Below are positions 50 to 12,865 of a DNA stretch of 33,666 nt, piece after piece. The notes under the pieces were generated by a model. The model saw nothing but the letters and a program-made list of their open reading frames with translations. It searched no databases and was not told the DNA's origin. The stretch is from a virus. The DNA lies in IMG/VR virus record IMGVR_UViG_3300005293_000047, positions 1 to 33,666 of that record; one strand, written 5' to 3'. Both the position numbers and the translations under genes were made by a program. How positions within the stretch are numbered: the stretch's first letter is position 1; each line of letters starts with the position of its first letter.

Positions 50-1408
50 TTGATCTATGAATTAAGTAATATGACAGAGTATGATGTCTATGCTGTTAAC
101 CTACAGTGTGTAAGAAGCTATATCTATTACCATGAATCTAAATACTACAAGAAGATAGTAGATGATGTGATGGAGCATACTAAATACAAATGGGAAGATG
201 CAGTTAGATGGTGGGTGTCTAACTCTGCTCGTGCAATCAAGAAGAAAGCTAATGGATTTGTCTTTAGCTTGGATAGGAATGCATATAGCAAGACAAAACA
301 AGGTATCAACTACAGAAAGGTTAAATCTCTTGTTGATTTCTTGGAGGAGAAAGGGTATATTGACCTTTATAAAGGATACGTTAAGTCTTGGAAGATGGAG
401 AAAGGAAAGCTTGTCCCTGATGAAGCAATTGCTTCTTGTATGATCTTCAGGAAGCGTACAAAAGAGATGTGGGAGAATGTTAATACGTCCTACAATCTTT
501 GGAAAGAATTAGAAGATAATGATTTAGCTATCATTCGTGATCGGGAGACTAAAGAACAAATGCCTACTCGTGGACATAAAGGTTTTAAAGAAATTAAAAA
601 TGAGGTACGAGATATGAATGACACTCTGCAAGGCAGTTCGATTACATTTGATGGCGTTCCTATTGCTGATGTGTCCTATCGTCGCATCTTTAGTGGGGAT
701 ATGGATAGTGGAGGTCGGCTGTACACATTAGGTGGTGGTGTGCAATTACTCCCTCAGCATGTGCGGGCGTCATCTCTAATGATTGATGGCGAGTCATGTG
801 TGGAACTGGACTACTCTGCAATCCACCCATCTATCTGCTATCAGTTGATGTACAAAACAAACGGATTTAATATTTATGACGTGATGGGTAAAGACTTTTC
901 TCCATATGATGCAGACTTGTCATTCCTGAAGGTTGATGGTCGATTGAAAGATGAGTGGGAAAAGAAGACGGGTAAGAAACACAACCCTGTCCGTCAATTA
1001 GCTAAGTTAGCTATCTTGATTGGTATGAACTCTAACGACAAGAATAGTGCAGCATGGACACTTGGTAACAAGGTTAAACAAGATCGTTCCAAGGCTGTTG
1101 AAGATCAGGATTTCTATGCTTTGATTGGTGAGACAGATTATTGTGCTGTTCTTGAGGCTGTGCAAACACATAATGATTTTATTAAAGATCGTTTCTTCTC
1201 TGATGCTGGTATTGTTCTTCAAAACATTGATAGTAAGATCATGATGCGTATTGTTGGGGCAATGGGGGCTAAGGGACACACAGTATTGGCTTATCACGAC
1301 AGTTGCCTAGTTAAAGCTTCTGTTGAAGATGACTTGAGAGAGGCTATGTTCTCAGCTTGGGAAACAGTATTGGGTGATACTACATTCTGTAAGGTGGATA
1401 AGAAATGA
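50..1408 (+). CDS. Divergent polymerase-palm-like protein (family A / single-subunit RNA polymerase type motifs)
   Basis: This 452-residue protein carries three blocks that resemble the A, B and C motifs of family A DNA polymerases and T7-like RNA polymerases. Motif A is D254-YSAIHP, motif B-like is R315-QLA-K319 followed by an IGMNS segment, and motif C is YHDS with D417. Ser418 follows the motif C Asp, as in T7 RNA polymerase, where DNA polymerases have Glu. The helix position usually held by Tyr in motif B is Asn. I see no 3'-5' exonuclease domain; residues 1-240 are unassigned. A likely role is nucleotidyl transfer in phage replication, but this is inference. The start is TTG, chosen because AAGGAG lies at 35-40 with good spacing; an ATG at 71 has no ribosome binding site. 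It overlaps the next gene by ATGA. Confidence 0.72.
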   Translation: MIYELSNMTEYDVYAVNLQCVRSYIYYHESKYYKKIVDDVMEHTKYKWEDAVRWWVSNSARAIKKKANGFVFSLDRNAYSKTKQGINYRKVKSLVDFLEEKGYIDLYKGYVKSWKMEKGKLVPDEAIASCMIFRKRTKEMWENVNTSYNLWKELEDNDLAIIRDRETKEQMPTRGHKGFKEIKNEVRDMNDTLQGSSITFDGVPIADVSYRRIFSGDMDSGGRLYTLGGGVQLLPQHVRASSLMIDGESCVELDYSAIHPSICYQLMYKTNGFNIYDVMGKDFSPYDADLSFLKVDGRLKDEWEKKTGKKHNPVRQLAKLAILIGMNSNDKNSAAWTLGNKVKQDRSKAVEDQDFYALIGETDYCAVLEAVQTHNDFIKDRFFSDAGIVLQNIDSKIMMRIVGAMGAKGHTVLAYHDSCLVKASVEDDLREAMFSAWETVLGDTTFCKVDKK

Positions 1409-1692
1409 GTGATTGGTGGAAAAGCTATCCCGGATACTCTGGACGCATAGACCTTCTAAAATCTTTCAAGACTGAAGAGGAATTTACAGACTTAATCCCT
1501 TATGATTTAAAACTGAGCATCAACAAAATCAAGCTTACTGAATCTTGTGTATGGATTCAGTATTTCTACAAATATAATTCTTGGCCTACAACTAAGAAAA
1601 TTAACGAAGCTCGTGGCAGTAGGTTGGAATGTAAGAATTGGTATTCTGTAGAGGATTTGTTGGTGAATGATAACTACGGAGAACATTTTTAA
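1405..1692 (+). CDS. Hypothetical protein, 95 aa
   Basis: I do not recognise this small protein. It is rich in Trp and Tyr (WW near the start, several WY/YF pairs), with no signal peptide, membrane segment or metal-binding motif. Its ATG overlaps the TGA of the polymerase-like gene (ATGA), so the two are probably translationally coupled and may act in the same process. An AAGGTG lies just upstream inside the preceding gene. It ends about 20 bases before a promoter-like TTGACA, so it is probably the last gene of its transcription unit. Confidence 0.65.
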   Translation: MSDWWKSYPGYSGRIDLLKSFKTEEEFTDLIPYDLKLSINKIKLTESCVWIQYFYKYNSWPTTKKINEARGSRLECKNWYSVEDLLVNDNYGEHF

Positions 1693-1711
1693 TATTTATT
1701 TTCCTAAAACC

Positions 1712-1740
1712 TTGACAGAACGAGCTCAATTGTGTTTTAC
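1712..1740 (+). promoter_or_regulatory. Candidate phage promoter (TTGACA at 1712)
   Basis: TTGACA at 1712-1717 is followed 17 bases later by a poor -10 (TTTTAC, 1735-1740). The surrounding DNA, from the AT-rich ATTTATTTTC upstream through TTGACAG-ACG and TCAAT to GAAACAAC and GGAG downstream, is clearly related to the region around 9172-9252. Two related copies upstream of two short genes support a real promoter despite the weak -10. Confidence 0.5.
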
Positions 1741-1777
1741 TACATGAACTTGAGAAACAACTAACGGAGTCCACATT

Positions 1778-1954
1778 ATGGGCGAGATTTGCTTTTGCTC
1801 ACAATGTGGGCGTATTAATAATTATTGTGTATGTGATATTGAAGTAGAATATTTGGAAGATAGTATTGAAGTGTTTCGGATGGAATATCAGTTTGAATCA
1901 CTAACAGACCCTGATTTCAGTGTTTATAAGACTATTTTACCTAAATACGAATAA
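1778..1954 (+). CDS. Small cysteine-rich protein, 58 aa, putative zinc-binding
   Basis: The gene starts at ATG 1778, with ACGGAG ending 9 bases upstream, and stops at TAA 1952-1954. The first 20 residues hold five cysteines as C-F-C-S-Q-C and C-V-C, a pattern typical of small zinc-ribbon or knuckle proteins. The remainder is acidic and has no recognised domain. It has its own promoter-like sequence at 1712 and lies between two promoters, so it may be expressed early as a small host-directed or regulatory protein. That role is inference; the family is not recognised. Confidence 0.6.
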   Translation: MGEICFCSQCGRINNYCVCDIEVEYLEDSIEVFRMEYQFESLTDPDFSVYKTILPKYE

Positions 1955-1960
1955 TAGTTG

Positions 1961-1989
1961 TTGACAACTAACCTAAAACGTGCAATAAT
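1961..1989 (+). promoter_or_regulatory. Sigma70-like promoter
   Basis: A perfect -35 (TTGACA, 1961-1966) is followed by a 17-base spacer and AATAAT at 1984-1989, one base from the -10 consensus. It begins 7 bases after the stop of the cysteine-rich gene and points at the 2026 gene, the hammerhead and the tRNAs. A small hairpin (CCAGT 1999-2003 with ACTGG 2009-2013) lies in the leader just before the GGAG ribosome binding site. Confidence 0.62.
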
Positions 1990-2025
1990 CAAGTATATCC
2001 AGTCGAGAACTGGGCGGAGAAAACC

Positions 2026-2286
2026 ATGAATTCTGAAAGCTTCACATATTGGCTCCAAGGCTTCATAGAACTATCCGACACAGACACCATCTCTGAAAAA
2101 CAATGGTTGATTATTAAAGATCATTTGAAGCTTGTGTTTGATAAAGTCACGCCAGTGCGTACACCTGATTGTAACAAAGAAGTATTCGTAGGGGTTGGTG
2201 ACATACCTACTCGGGTGTATCCTTCAGACTACTTCAAACAGTGGAAGTTGACAGACTTTCAAAGTCCTGTTCAGATCACTTGTTAA
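2026..2286 (+). CDS. Conserved-looking phage protein with WLQGF motif, 86 aa
   Basis: The protein begins with a YWLQGFIEL segment (residues 8-16). To my knowledge this opening is common in short uncharacterised proteins of many tailed phages. The rest is mixed alpha/beta with no catalytic motif, signal peptide or membrane segment. GGAG lies 8 bases upstream of the ATG. It is the only protein-coding gene between the 1961 promoter and the ribozyme/tRNA block, so it probably shares their transcript. Function unknown. Confidence 0.68.
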   Translation: MNSESFTYWLQGFIELSDTDTISEKQWLIIKDHLKLVFDKVTPVRTPDCNKEVFVGVGDIPTRVYPSDYFKQWKLTDFQSPVQITC

Positions 2287-2395
2287 AGAATGCGCAGTTG
2301 CTGGATTCTGCCACCTCGTGATAAAGACGAGATAAACAACACCAGCATTAATTTACGAGCGTACGATACCACCGCTCTGCAAGTAGGTATCCAGT
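2287..2395 (+). other. Structured spacer upstream of the hammerhead
   Basis: No gene is visible here. The bases can pair locally: GCTGG with CCAGC encloses a second hairpin CTCGT/ACGAG. Further on, GATACC/GGTATC and GAGCG/CGCTC are mutually exclusive pairings. This suggests an RNA leader or 3' UTR that folds, but I cannot match it to a known RNA class. Confidence 0.3.
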
Positions 2396-2478
2396 CAGAC
2401 ACACTTATTTAATACGCCTGATGAGACTTTGTAATAAGTCGAAACCTTATTAGGTCGCGTAGCTTCCCGAAGTGTCTG
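2396..2478 (+). ncRNA. Hammerhead ribozyme, type I
   Basis: All elements of a hammerhead are present. The core CTGATGA is at 2418-2424. Stem II is GACTT (2425-2429) with AAGTC (2436-2440) around a 6-base loop. GAAA is at 2441-2444. Stem III is ACCT (2444-2447) with AGGT (2452-2455) around TATT. The cleavage nucleotide is C2456 in GTC. Stem I is TACGC (2413-2417) with GCGTA (2457-2461). Beyond an internal loop (2407-2412 and 2462-2469), stem I continues with ACACTT (2401-2406) paired to AAGTGT (2470-2475) and CAG (2396-2398) to CTG (2476-2478), leaving a two-base bulge. An internal loop at this distance is where natural type I hammerheads contact loop II. Stem I is the open end, hence type I. 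Self-cleavage would fall after 2456, 63 nt before tRNA-Pro. Confidence 0.9.
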
Positions 2479-2519
2479 TGGGTTGGGAAGGTGAGCAGAG
2501 CATCTATTTTAAGTTTTAT

Positions 2520-2595
2520 CTAAGCGTAGCGAAAGTGGTAATCGTCTCGGTTTGGAACCGAGTACTCGCAGGTTCGATCCCTGCCGCTTAGACCA
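2520..2595 (+). tRNA. tRNA-Pro, anticodon UGG
   Basis: The acceptor stem CTAAGCG (2520-2526) pairs perfectly with CGCTTAG, followed by discriminator A and encoded CCA (2593-2595). The anticodon stem CTCGG/CCGAG holds the loop TTTGGAA, giving anticodon UGG (codon CCA, with wobble to other CCN). The T arm is GCAGG-TTCGATC-CCTGC. The D arm pairs weakly and base 26 seems absent, so folding may be slightly irregular. It lies 63 nt downstream of the hammerhead cleavage site. Confidence 0.93.
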
Positions 2596-2599
2596 ATTT

Positions 2600-2683
2600 G
2601 CGGAACTGATGTAATGGTAGCCATGGCAGTCTTAGAAACTGCTGTCGAAAGACGTGTAAGTTCGAGTCTTACGTTCCGCACCA
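2600..2683 (+). tRNA. tRNA-Leu, anticodon UAG
   Basis: The acceptor stem GCGGAAC (2600-2606) pairs perfectly with GTTCCGC, followed by A and encoded CCA. The anticodon stem GCAGT/ACTGC holds CTTAGAA, giving anticodon UAG (codon CUA). A long variable arm, as expected for class II tRNA-Leu, precedes the T arm GTAAG-TTCGAGT-CTTAC. Only four bases separate it from tRNA-Pro, so the pair is surely cotranscribed. Confidence 0.93.
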
Positions 2684-2729
2684 GTTTCACCACACCACGA
2701 AGGTCAAATTCTAGAAAGGTGTGTTCCTC

Positions 2730-2786
2730 CCGGCGTCTCTCCTCCTCTATGCCGGATCTTAAAGATAACTGATCCTCTCCTATCAG
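2730..2786 (+). ncRNA. Two tandem hairpins with CUCUCC loops downstream of the tRNAs
   Basis: Hairpin A pairs CCGGC (2730-2734) with GCCGG (2751-2755) and has a 16-base pyrimidine-rich loop. Hairpin B pairs CTGAT (2769-2773) with ATCAG (2782-2786) around the loop CCTCTCCT. Both loops contain CTCTCC, and the loop of the adjacent terminator-like hairpin at 2797-2836 does too. Read on the other strand, the same loops show AGGAGAG. No protein gene on either strand is convincing here. The strand and function are unproven; + is assumed from the tRNA operon. Confidence 0.5.
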
Positions 2787-2796
2787 CTTGTCTTTC

Positions 2797-2840
2797 ATAT
2801 TCTCTTAAGTGTCTCTCTCCTCGCTTAAGAGAATATTTTC
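2797..2840 (+). terminator. Long hairpin with short U-run, likely end of the tRNA transcript
   Basis: A 13-bp perfect inverted repeat (2797-2809 with 2824-2836) is followed by TTTTC. The 14-base loop again contains CTCTCC. The stem is mostly A/T, which is atypical for an intrinsic terminator. Its position after the tRNAs and before the tailspike gene fits a transcript end. Confidence 0.55.
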
Positions 2841-2917
2841 TTAATCATTTTGTTATCCATTGATATTATTGCAAGTAGTCTTGCCAGAATGATTTAGAAA
2901 ATTCAATTAAAACAATA

Positions 2918-2931
2918 TGTGATTTATCACA
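2918..2931. promoter_or_regulatory. Palindrome TGTGATTTATCACA upstream of the tailspike gene
   Basis: A perfect 6+2+6 inverted repeat lies 20 bases before the tailspike ATG. It could be an operator for a dimeric regulator, or an RNA hairpin affecting translation. Weak promoter-like bases (TTGCCA at 2881, CAATTA at 2904) lie just upstream. Confidence 0.3.
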
Positions 2932-2950
2932 ATCATTCAGTAGGGACAAT

Positions 2951-5479
2951 ATGATTCTTTCAGGTATTCTTCTAACCCCTACAGGTGTTCCATATTCAAA
3001 CTCACTTGTACGGATTACAGCTAATAATACATCTCCCGATGTCTTGATGTTTGTCACTAAAGATTTTAAGACAGACATTGACGGGGAATACGAGATTGAT
3101 GTTCCTAATGGTTGGTATAAAGTAAGTGTATTCGTAAATGATTACCATGCATTTACAAGCATTGGTAATATTGAAATTACAGATGATACAACAGAGACAA
3201 CTATTAACGCTCTGTTGATGGTTGGGCAAACTGCTGGGAGTGATCCTTTAGTAGCTCAAGTTGCAGCTAACGCTGCTGCTGCATTGGCTAGTAAGAATGC
3301 TGCTGCTATATCAGCTACGAATTCTACTAACAGTGCTACCGCCAGTGCCAATAGTGCAATAGCCTCTCAAACGTCAGCGGTAGCAAGTCAAACCTCTGCA
3401 ACTAACTCGGCTAATAGTGCATCATCTGCTAGTACTTTTGCGGGTGTATCTACCACTAAGGCTACTGAAGCTTCCACATCTGCACAGGATTCTTTGGATT
3501 CGGCTAATGCCGCTGAAGCTAGTGCTGTGTATACTGAAGGGCTTCTTTCTACTAAAGCTGATATCGCAGATCTATCCAACAACTCCGATCATTTAAAAGG
3601 CGCAGCCTTGATCGGTATTGATCTTGATGGCACACCAGCCACTATTTACTCCATACTTGGTGACTCTCGTGTGCCTATTGAATTGTTTGGTGCAGTTGGT
3701 GACTATGACCCAGATACCCAGATTGGTACGGATTGTACACCAGCCTTCCTTGCAGCTGAAGCTTCGGGCTTACCAATCAAGCTTAAAAGAAACAAGAAGT
3801 ACATGATCACTGATACAATACATGCGTGGTCTTCAATGGATATATTAGGGGATGACACTTATTCACCTGTAATCTATTGTAAGTTTCCATCTTCTGGTAA
3901 GCTGTTCTTTGCAAGCCCATTCACTGGACCAAGACTTAAGAACATATCCTTGAAGGGATTCACTGTAGCTCGTATTGGTACTCATGCCGAACATGGTATA
4001 TTGCTAGATAATACAGATGGTCTATTCCTAGATTTGAAAGTAATTTCAGATGGCACTGCTTTGGGTGGAGCCGTAGGCGTTAGTGCTTTTTATCCATATA
4101 ACAGACCGTCCACTAACTGCTATGGAAAACTTATCTGTGAGAAAGGCGGTAACTTCGGCCTTCAATATGGGAACGTAGATCATGGTAGTATGCAGGTGTT
4201 CTCTACCGACACTATGCGTGAAGTTATTGGTATAGAGCCATACACTTTAGGTAAATACGATTTTACCACATCTTCCGCAAATGCTCTCACCCTGACAGCG
4301 CACGGATTGACTACAGGTTACCCTTTAATTTACTCCCGCCAGAACAACACAGCGATTACTGGTTTTGGACGGGCCAATTACTATTTCGCTATTGTAGTTG
4401 ACGCTAACACTATTAAAGTAGCTGAAACCAAGGAAGATGCTATCACAGGTACTTACAAAACTATTGGTGCTTTCACAGGTACTCATCGTTTGTACAAGTG
4501 TGGTATCGCCAGTAATATTGAAGTTCTTCCGTCTGCCCTCAGTGTAGGTGATGTACCAGCAGCCGGCTCCGCAACAGGTGTGGCTATTATCGCGGCGGCC
4601 TCTGGCGGCTACCACGAGCATGTTGTCATGCGCGGTGTTGATATTATAGAGAGGAACCCCACCTCCGGATCACATTCGTTCTCGGTATACGGCGCTCAAA
4701 ATGCAAGCATTGAGAACTGCTCTGCCGTAGGTAGTAAGGCTAATGCCTACATGATTACTAGTGCATTCCTGAACAACGTGGCAGATGTCACAGGTGACAT
4801 CTCCCCCACTGGAGGTCTTGAGCTTCTTCCTGATGTTGTTGTAAAAGACGTAACAGCATACCAATTCAATGGGTCTGGTATTAGGGTAAACAAAGGTAAG
4901 GCTATTGTTGAGGGCTGTTATCTACACTCAGGCGTTGCTGGGGCATCTGGGATATCTATCTCCACTGACTCTGAGGGTTCCAAAGGAGCAAGAGCAAGGT
5001 ATAACACCGTTAACGTCCCACTGGGAACTTCCTATGATTTTATCACTGGTGTGGGTAATCGTGACGAGAACAGCACAGCACGTAGGGACTATTCATCTAA
5101 AAGGATCAACACTGCATCACAGACAATCTCCAAGAACCTGACAACCACCGGAAACGTGGTTGGTACTTGTGTTTCACAAGATGGTACAGCAACCAACTTT
5201 TCCGGTGTATTGTTCATTACAGTTAAACAAGTCGATGCAAATGCTTCTGAGACAGCACACTACATCCTTCAGGTAGCTAAGGGAGCCACGTCTCTTGCTC
5301 CTCAATTGGTAACTGTCAGTGCTGTTGGGCTTCTAACTGGTGCTGGTGGAACATTCCCATCGTTCACATGGTCTATTGACGCCTCTTCACAATTGAAGGC
5401 TACACCTATTGGATCAACAAACCCTAATGCTACTTGGAACTTTTTTACAAGCACTTTGGGGGACCTTTATGTTTCATAA
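2951..5479 (+). CDS. Tailspike / side tail fibre with beta-helix domain
   Basis: This 842-residue protein has three parts. Residues 1-93 form a beta-rich domain like the N-terminal prophage tail-fibre domain (lambda Stf type), related to carboxypeptidase regulatory folds. Residues about 100-200 are a low-complexity Ala/Ser/Asn/Thr stretch typical of fibre coiled coils. From about residue 238 a segment IELFGAVGDYDPDT with a following DCTPAF resembles the entry of pectate-lyase-like beta-helices of tailspikes; the remaining 600 residues are repeat-like with many Asn and Gly. It probably binds, and may degrade, a surface polysaccharide. I cannot assign catalytic residues. AGGGA precedes the ATG. 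It lies far from the baseplate operon, next to other receptor-binding genes. Confidence 0.8.
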   Translation: MILSGILLTPTGVPYSNSLVRITANNTSPDVLMFVTKDFKTDIDGEYEIDVPNGWYKVSVFVNDYHAFTSIGNIEITDDTTETTINALLMVGQTAGSDPLVAQVAANAAAALASKNAAAISATNSTNSATASANSAIASQTSAVASQTSATNSANSASSASTFAGVSTTKATEASTSAQDSLDSANAAEASAVYTEGLLSTKADIADLSNNSDHLKGAALIGIDLDGTPATIYSILGDSRVPIELFGAVGDYDPDTQIGTDCTPAFLAAEASGLPIKLKRNKKYMITDTIHAWSSMDILGDDTYSPVIYCKFPSSGKLFFASPFTGPRLKNISLKGFTVARIGTHAEHGILLDNTDGLFLDLKVISDGTALGGAVGVSAFYPYNRPSTNCYGKLICEKGGNFGLQYGNVDHGSMQVFSTDTMREVIGIEPYTLGKYDFTTSSANALTLTAHGLTTGYPLIYSRQNNTAITGFGRANYYFAIVVDANTIKVAETKEDAITGTYKTIGAFTGTHRLYKCGIASNIEVLPSALSVGDVPAAGSATGVAIIAAASGGYHEHVVMRGVDIIERNPTSGSHSFSVYGAQNASIENCSAVGSKANAYMITSAFLNNVADVTGDISPTGGLELLPDVVVKDVTAYQFNGSGIRVNKGKAIVEGCYLHSGVAGASGISISTDSEGSKGARARYNTVNVPLGTSYDFITGVGNRDENSTARRDYSSKRINTASQTISKNLTTTGNVVGTCVSQDGTATNFSGVLFITVKQVDANASETAHYILQVAKGATSLAPQLVTVSAVGLLTGAGGTFPSFTWSIDASSQLKATPIGSTNPNATWNFFTSTLGDLYVS

Positions 5480-9640: not shown

Positions 9641-10288
9641 ATGTCAAAAGTAATATTTGCAACAAAGATGCAGAAAGAAGTTTTGGAAAGTGATGGGAAG
9701 CTGACGGTGATTACAGCAGAGCCGGGAGCTGGTTCAACTGTAGCCCTTCTAATGAAGGCTTATAAAGAAGCCAGTGATAATCAAGATGTCAATGTAACCT
9801 TCTTTGTTCCCACGCCTCATCACCTAAAAGTTTGTGGTGGTGTTCGTGAAACATTTATGAAGTTGTTCGGTCAAGACTGCCGTTACTCTGAAACTTCTTG
9901 CATTGCAACATTGAAGAATGGTTCAAAGATTAAGTTTGTAGCTTGCCACGGGGATGTTAGTACAACCTTTGGCTTGGCTAATGAACTCATGTTGTTTGAT
10001 GCCAATATCTCTAAAGACTTTGTTGTTGCTCATTTGTTTCGAGCTAAGAAAATGGTTGTAGTTGACTCAATTGAGAATCTTGAGAAAGACGACTCTTGGG
10101 CTAACAAAGCAAACCTTCTTGATAAAGTTAACGGTCAGGTTGTTGGCTTCTGTGATTCTGTAAAACATATTACCGGGACAATTGAAGAAAACTTCTTGTT
10201 TGAAGGTGATCGGAATCGCTATAAAGAATTGGTAATGCAGTCAATTCCCGGACGAATGAAAGTTCAGTTTGGGAGTGTTGTAGTTTGA
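9641..10288 (+). CDS. Terminase-ATPase-like paralogue with degenerate Walker A, 215 aa
   Basis: The order of segments follows the N-terminal half of the true large terminase at 11399. A Gln-containing start (KMQKEVL) is followed by a P-loop-like AEPGAGSTV (26-34), a strand with TP-x-x-LK, a block ending in DCRY, and an hydrophobic stretch near residue 120 in the Walker B position. A second Walker B-like stretch, MVVVDSIEN, follows near residue 140. The P-loop Lys is Ser32, so ATP hydrolysis is probably lost or altered. There is no nuclease domain. It may regulate packaging, bind terminase subunits, or be a domesticated duplicate. The similarity was judged by eye. Its stop overlaps the HNH gene start. 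Confidence 0.55.
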   Translation: MSKVIFATKMQKEVLESDGKLTVITAEPGAGSTVALLMKAYKEASDNQDVNVTFFVPTPHHLKVCGGVRETFMKLFGQDCRYSETSCIATLKNGSKIKFVACHGDVSTTFGLANELMLFDANISKDFVVAHLFRAKKMVVVDSIENLEKDDSWANKANLLDKVNGQVVGFCDSVKHITGTIEENFLFEGDRNRYKELVMQSIPGRMKVQFGSVVV

Positions 10289-11463
10289 ATTACAGTAAAA
10301 TTTATGACCAATTAGTTGCAAAAGCAAAGCCTCGCGGATTGAATAAGAACTCTGTAGATTTCTACACGGAGATTCATCATATAGTACCCAGAAGTATTGG
10401 TGGTACTGACGAGTCTAGTAATCTTGTTATGTTCTCAGGTCGTGAGCATTTTGTAGCACATATGTTGCTATGGAAATCTTACCCAGAAGATATCAGCTTA
10501 ATGCGCGCTGCTTTCATGATGTCCTCTCGTTGGAAGACACGAGATATTCCTGATGAGCACCCTCAAAACTCTAGGACATATTCTAGGTTGCGAGAAGAGT
10601 ATGCTCAAGCGGTTAGTATCCAGTGTTCTGGTGAAAACAATCCTATGTTTGGTGTTACTCACTCCGCTGAACTTCGTGAGCAAATTGAAAAGACACGGAA
10701 GAAAACAAATCGTAGGAAACAATTGGCCGACTGGCGAAACAGCAATGAAAAGTACATGTCGCAGTTTAAGCCTAAGCAAACTGAACTCCAGCCTTTTCTT
10801 ATAAATATAGGTTCAAGCTTTCCTACCTTCAGGTATAAAGGTGAGCTTAAAGATTGGTTAGCGTTTGAAGTTTATAAAGACTTCTGGTCGCGCTCTGGAA
10901 AGACTGGAAAGAAAGACCTTTCAACCAAAATTGTGAAAGTTTCAGGTAAAGAGTTCAGCACTAGTTATTTTACAACTATGACAGGAAGATTTGTTGAGGA
11001 TTTTGATCCTTCCTCAAATTCAGACTATGTAGCCAAGGCTTTGAACAACAACTCAGACGAATATATTACAGAAATGGAATACGCCCTGAGAAAGACATTA
11101 GTTGAAATTGAAGACGATTACATCTCTGATTGGATGGACAACAGAGAAGATAATAGATCTAAGATACAAGATGCTTTGACGAAACTTAAAGTTGAAAAGC
11201 ACAAGTATAATAGTAAAGCTATTTTCTCATTGGTTGACGTAACAGAAGCGCTAATACTGTGGCGATCAGGTTTTGTAGAACAAAAGTTTCTTGCAAATCT
11301 TTACGGTGTAGCTAGAAATTCAGTTTCTAACGCACTAGAGACTAAAGAGCGATGGCTTGAAGTTAAAAACAAAATTGAAGAAATTGAGGTAAGCGTCTTT
11401 GACAACTACAAACGTAGTAGCGCCTGCCAGCAAACCACAAGCGATGTTTTTGTCCACCCCTGA
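10285..11463 (+). CDS. HNH homing endonuclease with NUMOD3-like segment
   Basis: Residues 29-63 form an HNH nuclease: H31-H32 followed by VPRSIGG, N46 in SSNLV, and REHFVAH with H55 and H59. Residues 116 to about 140 (GENNPMFG, then a basic helix) resemble NUMOD3 DNA-binding motifs of phage homing endonucleases. Residues about 310-365 look like a helix-turn-helix. Such enzymes cut at related sites in phages lacking the gene and so spread it. It starts at TTG 10285 (GGGAG upstream), overlapping the previous stop, and its last 65 bases overlap the large terminase gene in another frame. That tight fit suggests insertion at the terminase start rather than an intron. Confidence 0.85.
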   Translation: MNYSKIYDQLVAKAKPRGLNKNSVDFYTEIHHIVPRSIGGTDESSNLVMFSGREHFVAHMLLWKSYPEDISLMRAAFMMSSRWKTRDIPDEHPQNSRTYSRLREEYAQAVSIQCSGENNPMFGVTHSAELREQIEKTRKKTNRRKQLADWRNSNEKYMSQFKPKQTELQPFLINIGSSFPTFRYKGELKDWLAFEVYKDFWSRSGKTGKKDLSTKIVKVSGKEFSTSYFTTMTGRFVEDFDPSSNSDYVAKALNNNSDEYITEMEYALRKTLVEIEDDYISDWMDNREDNRSKIQDALTKLKVEKHKYNSKAIFSLVDVTEALILWRSGFVEQKFLANLYGVARNSVSNALETKERWLEVKNKIEEIEVSVFDNYKRSSACQQTTSDVFVHP

Positions 11464-12865
11464 TTGGGTGGACATCTGTTTCTACGGGGGTCAGGCTGGC
11501 GGAGGTAAGACTTGGGCTGGATTGGCCCATCACGCCAAATATATGCATGACCCGCTTTACCGTGGACTAACGTTACGCCGAACAACACCAATGCTACTTA
11601 AGCCGGGTGCTGTTTGGGATGAAGCAAAACAATTATATAGGCTTCTTGATCCAGATTGTAGAATTAGGATTAAAGACTTAAAGATCATCGCAAGTTCAGA
11701 TGCAGAAGTATTCTTCTCTCACTTTGAACGAGTTGATGATACAGACAACTTTCAAGGTGCTCAAATCTCCAGTTGTGTAATGGAGGAGTTGTGTCAGTTT
11801 GAAGAATCTCAGTTTAACTACATCCTATCTCGTTTGCGTACTAAGGCTAACATGAAGCCTAACATGCGAGCCACCATGAACCCGGACCCAGATAGTTGGG
11901 TGAGAAAGTGGGTTGACTGGTACTTGTATCCAGAAGGTCATGAATTGTTTGGTCGTCCTGACCCAGCAAAGCAAGGTGTAATTAGGTGGTTTGTTCGTCT
12001 AGATAATGAAATGTTCTGGGCTGATACTAAAGAAGAGCTTGATGAACGTTTCCCTGATTGTGTCCCTCTTTCGTTTAGATTCATCGCAGCTTCCGTCTAT
12101 GATAATCCGCATATTGAAAAGAGTTATATCGCTTTTCTTCAAGGTCTTCCTCGCATACAAAAAGAAATTTTGCTCTACGGGAATTGGGAAGCGCGTCCTG
12201 AATCAAATTCGCTAATACGACGTGAGTGGTTTGTGGAATGTGCTGAAGAACCTGCATGGACAGAGATTGTTAAAACAGTAAGAACGTATGACTTTGCTGG
12301 CACTTTGAAAGGTCCAGATACAGTCTACGATCCTGACTACACAGCTAGTATTAAAATCTCTAAATTAAAGAATGGTGAATATTTTATCCATGACATTATC
12401 CGTACAAGGATTCGTTTTGGTGAGTGGAGCCGTTTTGTTCTAGAGAATGCACTTCGGGATGGCGTTAAAGTTGACATTGTAATCCCAGAAGATCCGGGAC
12501 CAAGTGCTAAAGCTGCAACTATGATGCTTGCAAGAGAGATATCTGAGCAAGGTTACTTTGTAAGAACTTTAAAAACCAACCAGAAAAAGATTGATAGGTT
12601 TCGCCCATTTGCATCGTTCACTATGAACGGTGGTATGAAGATCCTAAAGAATTGTGGTAATGACTTTGAGAACAAAGTTTACAATGACCTTTCATTCTTC
12701 TATAAGGAACTTGAGACTTTCACAGGCGAGCGTAAGTCGGGCTCACAAGGCCACGATGATCTCGTCGATGTTTGCTCTGATGGATTTATTGTTCTAGCTC
12801 AGAAGTTGAGTATTCCGCTGTTTACACTCCCCAGCATGACAAAATCCAATGAATTCAGCTTTTAA
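11399..12865 (+). CDS. terL: Terminase large subunit (packaging ATPase/nuclease)
   Basis: This 488-residue protein powers DNA packaging into the prohead and cuts concatemers. Visible motifs are the Q-motif-like KPQ (12-14), Walker A GGQAGGGKT (30-38), Walker B with VMEE (127-130), and the coupling motif TMNP (159-162). An RNase H-type nuclease follows with D298 (TYDFAGT), E364 (IPEDPG) and HDD plus Asp at 452-457. The start is TTG 11399 with GAGGT upstream; a later ATG at 11444 would lose the conserved KPQ. Length is normal for the family. The gene sits between an HNH endonuclease and the portal gene. Confidence 0.96.
   Translation: MTTTNVVAPASKPQAMFLSTPDWVDICFYGGQAGGGKTWAGLAHHAKYMHDPLYRGLTLRRTTPMLLKPGAVWDEAKQLYRLLDPDCRIRIKDLKIIASSDAEVFFSHFERVDDTDNFQGAQISSCVMEELCQFEESQFNYILSRLRTKANMKPNMRATMNPDPDSWVRKWVDWYLYPEGHELFGRPDPAKQGVIRWFVRLDNEMFWADTKEELDERFPDCVPLSFRFIAASVYDNPHIEKSYIAFLQGLPRIQKEILLYGNWEARPESNSLIRREWFVECAEEPAWTEIVKTVRTYDFAGTLKGPDTVYDPDYTASIKISKLKNGEYFIHDIIRTRIRFGEWSRFVLENALRDGVKVDIVIPEDPGPSAKAATMMLAREISEQGYFVRTLKTNQKKIDRFRPFASFTMNGGMKILKNCGNDFENKVYNDLSFFYKELETFTGERKSGSQGHDDLVDVCSDGFIVLAQKLSIPLFTLPSMTKSNEFSF

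Follow-up and report, generated by a model that had tools for sequence, protein, structure and literature searches.

A predicted type I hammerhead ribozyme set within a larger double-pseudoknot RNA of phage genomes

Background

Perreault et al. (2011, PMC3088659) reported hammerhead ribozymes beside prophage genes, with stems I and II braced by pseudoknots. The roles of prokaryotic hammerheads have been called open (De la Pena review, PMC6155905). Another class of self-cleaving RNA, the theta ribozymes, is HDV-like and lies 3' of phage tRNAs, where a role in 3' trailer processing has been proposed (PMC10879173).

The element described here shares several features with the type I hammerheads of Perreault et al. 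(2011): the CUGANGA/GAAA/NUH core, three stems, a stem I open to the flanks, and a location in phages. It differs from them in two added pseudoknots, b/b' and d/d', which lie outside the hammerhead in a separate fold that also occurs alone. The PaP3 hammerhead from the same study lies on the opposite strand, away from its tRNAs, and was rejected as a member of this family. Like the theta ribozymes, the element would be a self-cleaving RNA adjoining phage tRNAs. However, it has a hammerhead core and lies 5' of the tRNAs, where a theta ribozyme would have an HDV-like fold and cut at the 3' end of a tRNA, and most of its relatives have no tRNA.

The locus

The window, the whole stretch of DNA that was analysed, is an IMG/VR virus record of 33,666 bases. 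Genes for terminase, portal, sheath and baseplate proteins mark it as a phage with a contractile tail. Its large terminase subunit is nearest to those of Pseudomonas phages, with a top identity of 47% (to vB_PsaM_M1). The large terminase gene is apparently split (9641-12865), with a homing endonuclease ORF at 10285-11463 between two terminase parts. The surroundings of the element are as follows.

1961-1989, plus strand: candidate sigma-70-like promoter, by consensus match (11/12, extended -10)
2026-2286: small ORF, the upstream neighbour of the element
2357-2501, plus strand: whole conserved element, a double-pseudoknot RNA with an embedded type I hammerhead, delimited by covariation and a leave-out covariance model (R2)
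2520-2595, plus strand: tRNA-Pro (UGG), starting 18 bases past the element and outside the conserved unit
2600-2683, plus strand: tRNA-Leu (UAG), outside the conserved unit
2951 (start): tail-fibre gene, downstream of the tRNA pair

A transcript running through the element could start at the promoter-like sequence.

The hammerhead

A first-pass annotation had recognized a type I hammerhead at 2396-2478, between a phage mRNA and a tRNA pair, and an internal loop in its stem I. Its location stands, and the invariant core bases, the three stems and the C2456|G2457 site are all where they had been placed; the internal loop is present between inner and outer stem I. The extent does not stand, as the conserved element is 2357-2501 and includes two pseudoknots. 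The parts of the hammerhead are listed below.

2396-2402, plus strand: helix c (outer stem I), 5' strand CAGACAC, paired with 2472-2478 and covarying
2413-2417, plus strand: inner stem I, 5' strand TACGC, paired with 2457-2461 (97.7% of cells paired)
2418-2424, plus strand: core CUGAUGA (CTGATGA in DNA), unchanged in 26 members save at position 7
2425-2440, plus strand: stem II hairpin GACTT-TGTAAT-AAGTC, 2425-2429 pairing with 2436-2440
2441-2444, plus strand: core GAAA, invariant in 26 members
2444-2455, plus strand: stem III hairpin ACCT-TATT-AGGT, 2444-2447 pairing with 2452-2455
2454-2456, plus strand: cleavage triplet GTC, followed after the site by G2457
2456-2457, plus strand: predicted cleavage site C17|G1.1, with residue 17 a C in 11, an A in 8, a U in 7 and a G in none of the 26 members
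2457-2462, plus strand: GCGTAG, the 3' strand of inner stem I plus a G; CGTAG is retained in hammerhead-less members
2472-2478, plus strand: helix c (outer stem I), 3' strand GTGTCTG, paired with 2396-2402

The anatomy is that of type I. A CUGANGA...GAAA core is present with an NUH triplet (GUC in the window), and three helices surround the core, with stem I open to the flanks and compensatory changes in stems I-III. Loops close stems II and III, and the stem I internal loop and loop II are both present. Across the 26 distinct hammerhead-bearing members, the sole change in the core sequence is one U to C at the free position 7. Pair 10.1-11.1, a G-C in the window, is mismatched in 11 of them.

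Examined as a single sequence, the hammerhead is less distinct. The window has one match to a loose core pattern, against a mean of 0.14 in shuffled windows, 13 of 100 of which have one; because shuffled windows also yield it, the core pattern alone is weak evidence. The first-pass annotation had proposed a search with the Rfam hammerhead models as a check, and this search leaves the element uncalled. RF02275 (Hammerhead_HH9), which has the same core and a CCUAUUAGGUC-like stem III loop, matches in part (positions 14-59 of 77) with 23.4 bits against a gathering threshold of 52, and its model does not contain the outer fold. RF03152 (RAGATH-1 hammerhead), which has the same core and stem II start, scores 17.9 bits against 56.3, and its upstream hairpin has no counterpart in the window. 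RNAfold, whose model does not cover pseudoknots and tertiary contacts, gives a minimum-energy fold of -24.1 kcal/mol that is not the hammerhead, compared with -21.5 kcal/mol for the hammerhead fold. In the best fold CCUGAUGAG pairs with CUUAUUAGG, and part of the core is bound to a stem III strand. With a weak pattern, Rfam scores below threshold and another fold preferred, the case for the hammerhead therefore rests on comparison.

The outer fold

Comparison indicates that the hammerhead is set, on helix c, within a larger RNA that contains two pseudoknots. The parts of this outer fold, in addition to helix c, are given below.

2357-2364, plus strand: conserved 5' segment GAGCGTAC, consensus GAGCRUAC, with A7 and C8 invariant; no partner was found in alignments A1 and A2
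2365-2370, plus strand: helix a, 5' strand GATACC, paired with 2386-2391 (100% of cells paired, double changes at 5/6 pairs)
2374-2380, plus strand: pseudoknot helix b, 5' strand GCTCTGC, within the loop of helix a and paired with 2495-2501
2381-2385, plus strand: joining segment AAGTA, invariant with and without the hammerhead
2386-2391, plus strand: helix a, 3' strand GGTATC, from covariation
2463-2468, plus strand: pseudoknot helix d, 5' strand CTTCCC, paired with 2485-2490 (93-100% of cells paired)
2485-2490, plus strand: pseudoknot helix d, 3' strand GGGAAG, from covariation
2491-2494, plus strand: joining segment GTGA, invariant in both classes
2495-2501, plus strand: pseudoknot helix b, 3' strand GCAGAGC, from covariation

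The members follow the plan GAGCRUAC - a - b - AAGUA - a' - c - inner stem I/hammerhead - CGUAG - d - c' - d' - GUGA - b'. Helix b runs from the loop of hairpin a to the very end of the element, and helix d from the stem I internal loop to beyond c'; each is thus a pseudoknot. Helix b is paired in 98.9% of cells, with double changes at all 7 pairs.

In topology only, this fold is like the nested double pseudoknot of HDV-like ribozymes: a, b, a', the inner domain, the joining segment and b' correspond to P1, P2, P1', P4, J4/2 and P2'. The catalytic C of HDV lies in the J4/2 joining segment. The outer fold, in contrast, has no P3 hairpin, as AAGUA alone lies between b and a', and at the J4/2 position it carries GUGA, which has no cytosine. 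An HDV-like ribozyme was dropped as an identity for the outer fold on these two points. Pistol, twister and hatchet were dropped on their anatomy.

No family in Rfam 15 reaches threshold on the element, and a gathering-level search of the window yields tRNAs only. The outer fold, being absent from Rfam 15, would be a new entry there. No description of it was found in the open papers searched; supplementary lists may hold individual hammerheads of its family.

The family

By blastn, the stretch 2357-2502 is also present in Klebsiella and E. coli phages. Relatives found in this way were combined with scans of IMG/VR to give 37 distinct members. L007 was excluded as an independent member because it is 100% identical to the window. 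The scan patterns fixed some sequence motifs, so the conservation of those motifs is partly an effect of hit selection; pairing partners were left free in the later scans. Ten records, complete or partial, gave a match, and each has a single copy of the element.

Covariation was measured over 40 pairs in an alignment of the 26 distinct hammerhead-bearing members. Paired cells make up 93.4%, compared with a mean of 69.4% in shuffles and 29-40% in slides, and none of these controls approaches the observed level. Double changes occur at 33 of the 40 pairs, and there are 242 compensatory cells against 67 in shuffles. R2, a covariance model trained with the window and its closest relative left out, finds 2357-2501 as its sole match in the window (108.7 bits, E 6e-22). 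Homology thus argues for a real hammerhead, and settles that question. Scans that did not require the core gave 18 distinct members, 14 with intact cores and 4 from which the hammerhead is cleanly absent, and no half-decayed copies. By these comparisons, the hammerhead is under selection.

Several searches gave no further members. A pattern scan of genome contigs gave 13 matches, of which 0 had paired strands and 0 matched the covariance model, and one viral-contig pattern gave, besides L007, chance matches in coding sequence. There was no match in 398 Pseudomonadota genomes, a result that carries no weight given the strict filters and the lack of a positive control, or, with two queries, in E. 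coli genomes.

A separate type I hammerhead subfamily with another outer fold was seen in L091 (1305-1356) and in L081, L080 and L087. The L091 copy lies directly 3' of the end of a tRNA-like gene.

Members lacking the hammerhead

Four of the 37 distinct members (L008, L010, L125 and L130) keep the outer fold without the hammerhead. They retain a, b, c, d, GAGCRUAC, AAGUA, CGUAG and GUGA, and score 56-66 bits with model R1. The 5' outer domain is identical in L008 and L009; the cassette is absent from L008 and present in L009. The hammerhead thus looks, from these sequences, like a removable cassette in the outer fold. In hammerhead-bearing members CGUAG forms the 3' side of inner stem I, which puts the end of the cassette at or beside the cleavage site. 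Because these four members lack the hammerhead, the role of the outer fold, whatever it is, would need no cleavage.

Genomic contexts

In lambdoid-type genomes (L008, L011, L066 and L068) the element lies between the Q antiterminator and the holin. L072 likewise has Q upstream of the element, and L069 has a holin on its downstream side. The element lies ahead of the terminase small subunit in L039, L064 and L083, and within about 0.5-1 kb of the terminase large subunit in L070 and L131. Terminator-like hairpins, judged by eye, or untranslated genes often lie 3' of the element. By gene order, the element lies at the starts of phage transcription units.

Other structured sequences were seen nearby. 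L008 and L011 share a structured stretch (GGCGGC ... CCGCC, AGTTGGT ... CCAACC) after the Q gene, about 100 bases upstream of the element. In the related phages L009, L039 and L063, differing structured-looking sequences lie upstream of the element and before the terminase small subunit gene. A second RNA module, GGTG-AATGCGCAGGCTGATGCGC ... GCCGGAGATCAGCACCGGC-CACC, encloses the element in L064, L083 and L131, and in L005 and L022 is found immediately 5' of it; its AATGCGCAG also occurs upstream of the element in the window, at about 2288-2350. Finally, L005 (Klebsiella phage OP558003) has about 3 kb (700-4134) with no annotated genes and with dense tRNA-like and hairpin structures. It includes a match to the sRNA family STnc100 (3089-3302), and the region looks like a structured-RNA array.

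The link to tRNAs

A tRNA lies within 300 bases of the element in 7 of the 37 distinct members, compared with a baseline at those loci of 3.4% of positions. Transfer RNAs are therefore enriched near the element, yet they are not the rule, and at this frequency tRNA arrays are one habitat of the element and not a defining one. The tRNA follows after 7 bases in L022 and 9 in L130; in L018 the nearest tRNA is upstream, 8 bases before the element.

The closest comparison is with L006/L144, which is syntenic with the window and 94% identical to it over 2018-2516 and 90% over 2931-3922. In L006/L144 the tRNA segment has been swapped for other sequence with no tRNA, and the element is retained. Its outer stem I reads CATTC/GAATG where the window has CAGAC/GTCTG, a compensatory change, and its d/d' pseudoknot is altered and still paired, save for one pair lost at the d end. 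Conversely, the tRNA-Pro occurs without the element in the Pseudomonas phages vB_PsaM_M1 and SYP. In these genomes, element and tRNAs come and go independently. A dedicated tRNA-processing element would be constantly linked to tRNAs, and this linkage was not found.

Possible functions

We lean towards the element being a self-cleaving leader or spacer RNA of phages, which gives the downstream RNA a pseudoknot-anchored 5'-OH start. The transcript would run from the small ORF toward the tRNAs and the tail-fibre gene, and the hammerhead would fold during transcription and cut between C2456 and G2457. Hammerhead cleavage leaves a 2',3'-cyclic phosphate on the upstream product and a 5'-OH on the downstream one. 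The b/b' and c/c' helices would keep the two halves joined after the cut, so that the downstream RNA would begin with a 5'-OH buried in a compact knot. With the two predicted products still held together by these helices, cleavage need not release them. Such a start may shield the downstream RNA from decay at its 5' end, namely the tRNAs here and late mRNA for lysis or packaging elsewhere, and the cut would set a uniform 5' boundary regardless of the upstream sequence.

Other readings place the function elsewhere. The double-pseudoknot RNA may represent a class of phage RNA not described before, acting in its own right where late operons and tRNA arrays begin. The hammerhead would then be an optional, removable catalytic module, and its cleavage would set the knot in one state or switch it to another; we hold this tentatively, as somewhat less than an even prospect. 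The hammerhead could also be a mere passenger, a removable cassette in an RNA whose function needs no cleavage, for example RNA polymerase binding that averts termination of untranslated transcripts, or protein binding. The four members that keep fold and motifs without it, the L008/L009 pair, and the terminator-like hairpins or untranslated genes that often follow the element all fit such a cassette. Antitermination was considered as a possible role of the outer fold, and its position would suit this. A passenger would be expected to decay. In the 26 aligned hammerheads, however, no catalytic base is lost and the NUH rule always holds, and the core-blind scans found no half-decayed copies, which makes a passenger rather unlikely. 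The first-pass annotation had suggested that the hammerhead separates the upstream mRNA from the tRNA precursor, a step that would aid tRNA maturation. The 18-base distance to tRNA-Pro, the enrichment of tRNAs above baseline and the role proposed for theta ribozymes beside phage tRNAs (PMC10879173) speak for it. The family at large does not bear it out: in 30 of the 37 members any tRNA is more than 300 bases away, some members are followed by holin or terminase genes instead, the element persists in L006/L144 where the tRNAs are absent, and vB_PsaM_M1 has tRNAs and no element. Moreover, the cut would leave a long 5' leader for RNase P, with the halves still paired. A role of this kind is quite improbable.

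A reversible or ligand-gated switch has been given little credence. Here CGUAG would be sequestered in stem I of the intact hammerhead until cleavage, or a partner binding to the knot, released it and gave the outer fold the state of the hammerhead-less members; ligation could reset the switch because the halves stay paired. CGUAG is indeed kept whether or not its stem I partner is there, the products would still be joined by b/b' and c/c', and the unpaired GAGCRUAC, AAGUA and GUGA vary little or not at all, as would the residues of a binding pocket. However, no partner for CGUAG was found in the four hammerhead-less members, which are too few sequences for a test, and we know of no ligand or protein for the element. 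Chance resemblance or a dead relic can hardly be credited: a loose core pattern is expected 0.14 times per window and the Rfam thresholds are not reached, but the E-value of the leave-out model, the covariation, and the compensatory changes within the closest pair of relatives stand against it.

Significance

A knotted RNA bearing a predicted hammerhead recurs in many unrelated phages. Since members occur in phages of Klebsiella, E. coli and Pseudomonas aeruginosa that can be cultured, such as Klebsiella phages BaqKoxi and DP01 and temperate P. aeruginosa phages of the phita81A type, cleavage and its effects on lysis genes, packaging genes and tRNAs are directly testable. One fold that occurs naturally with and without the hammerhead, and with and without tRNAs, offers a handle on the function of hammerheads in phages.
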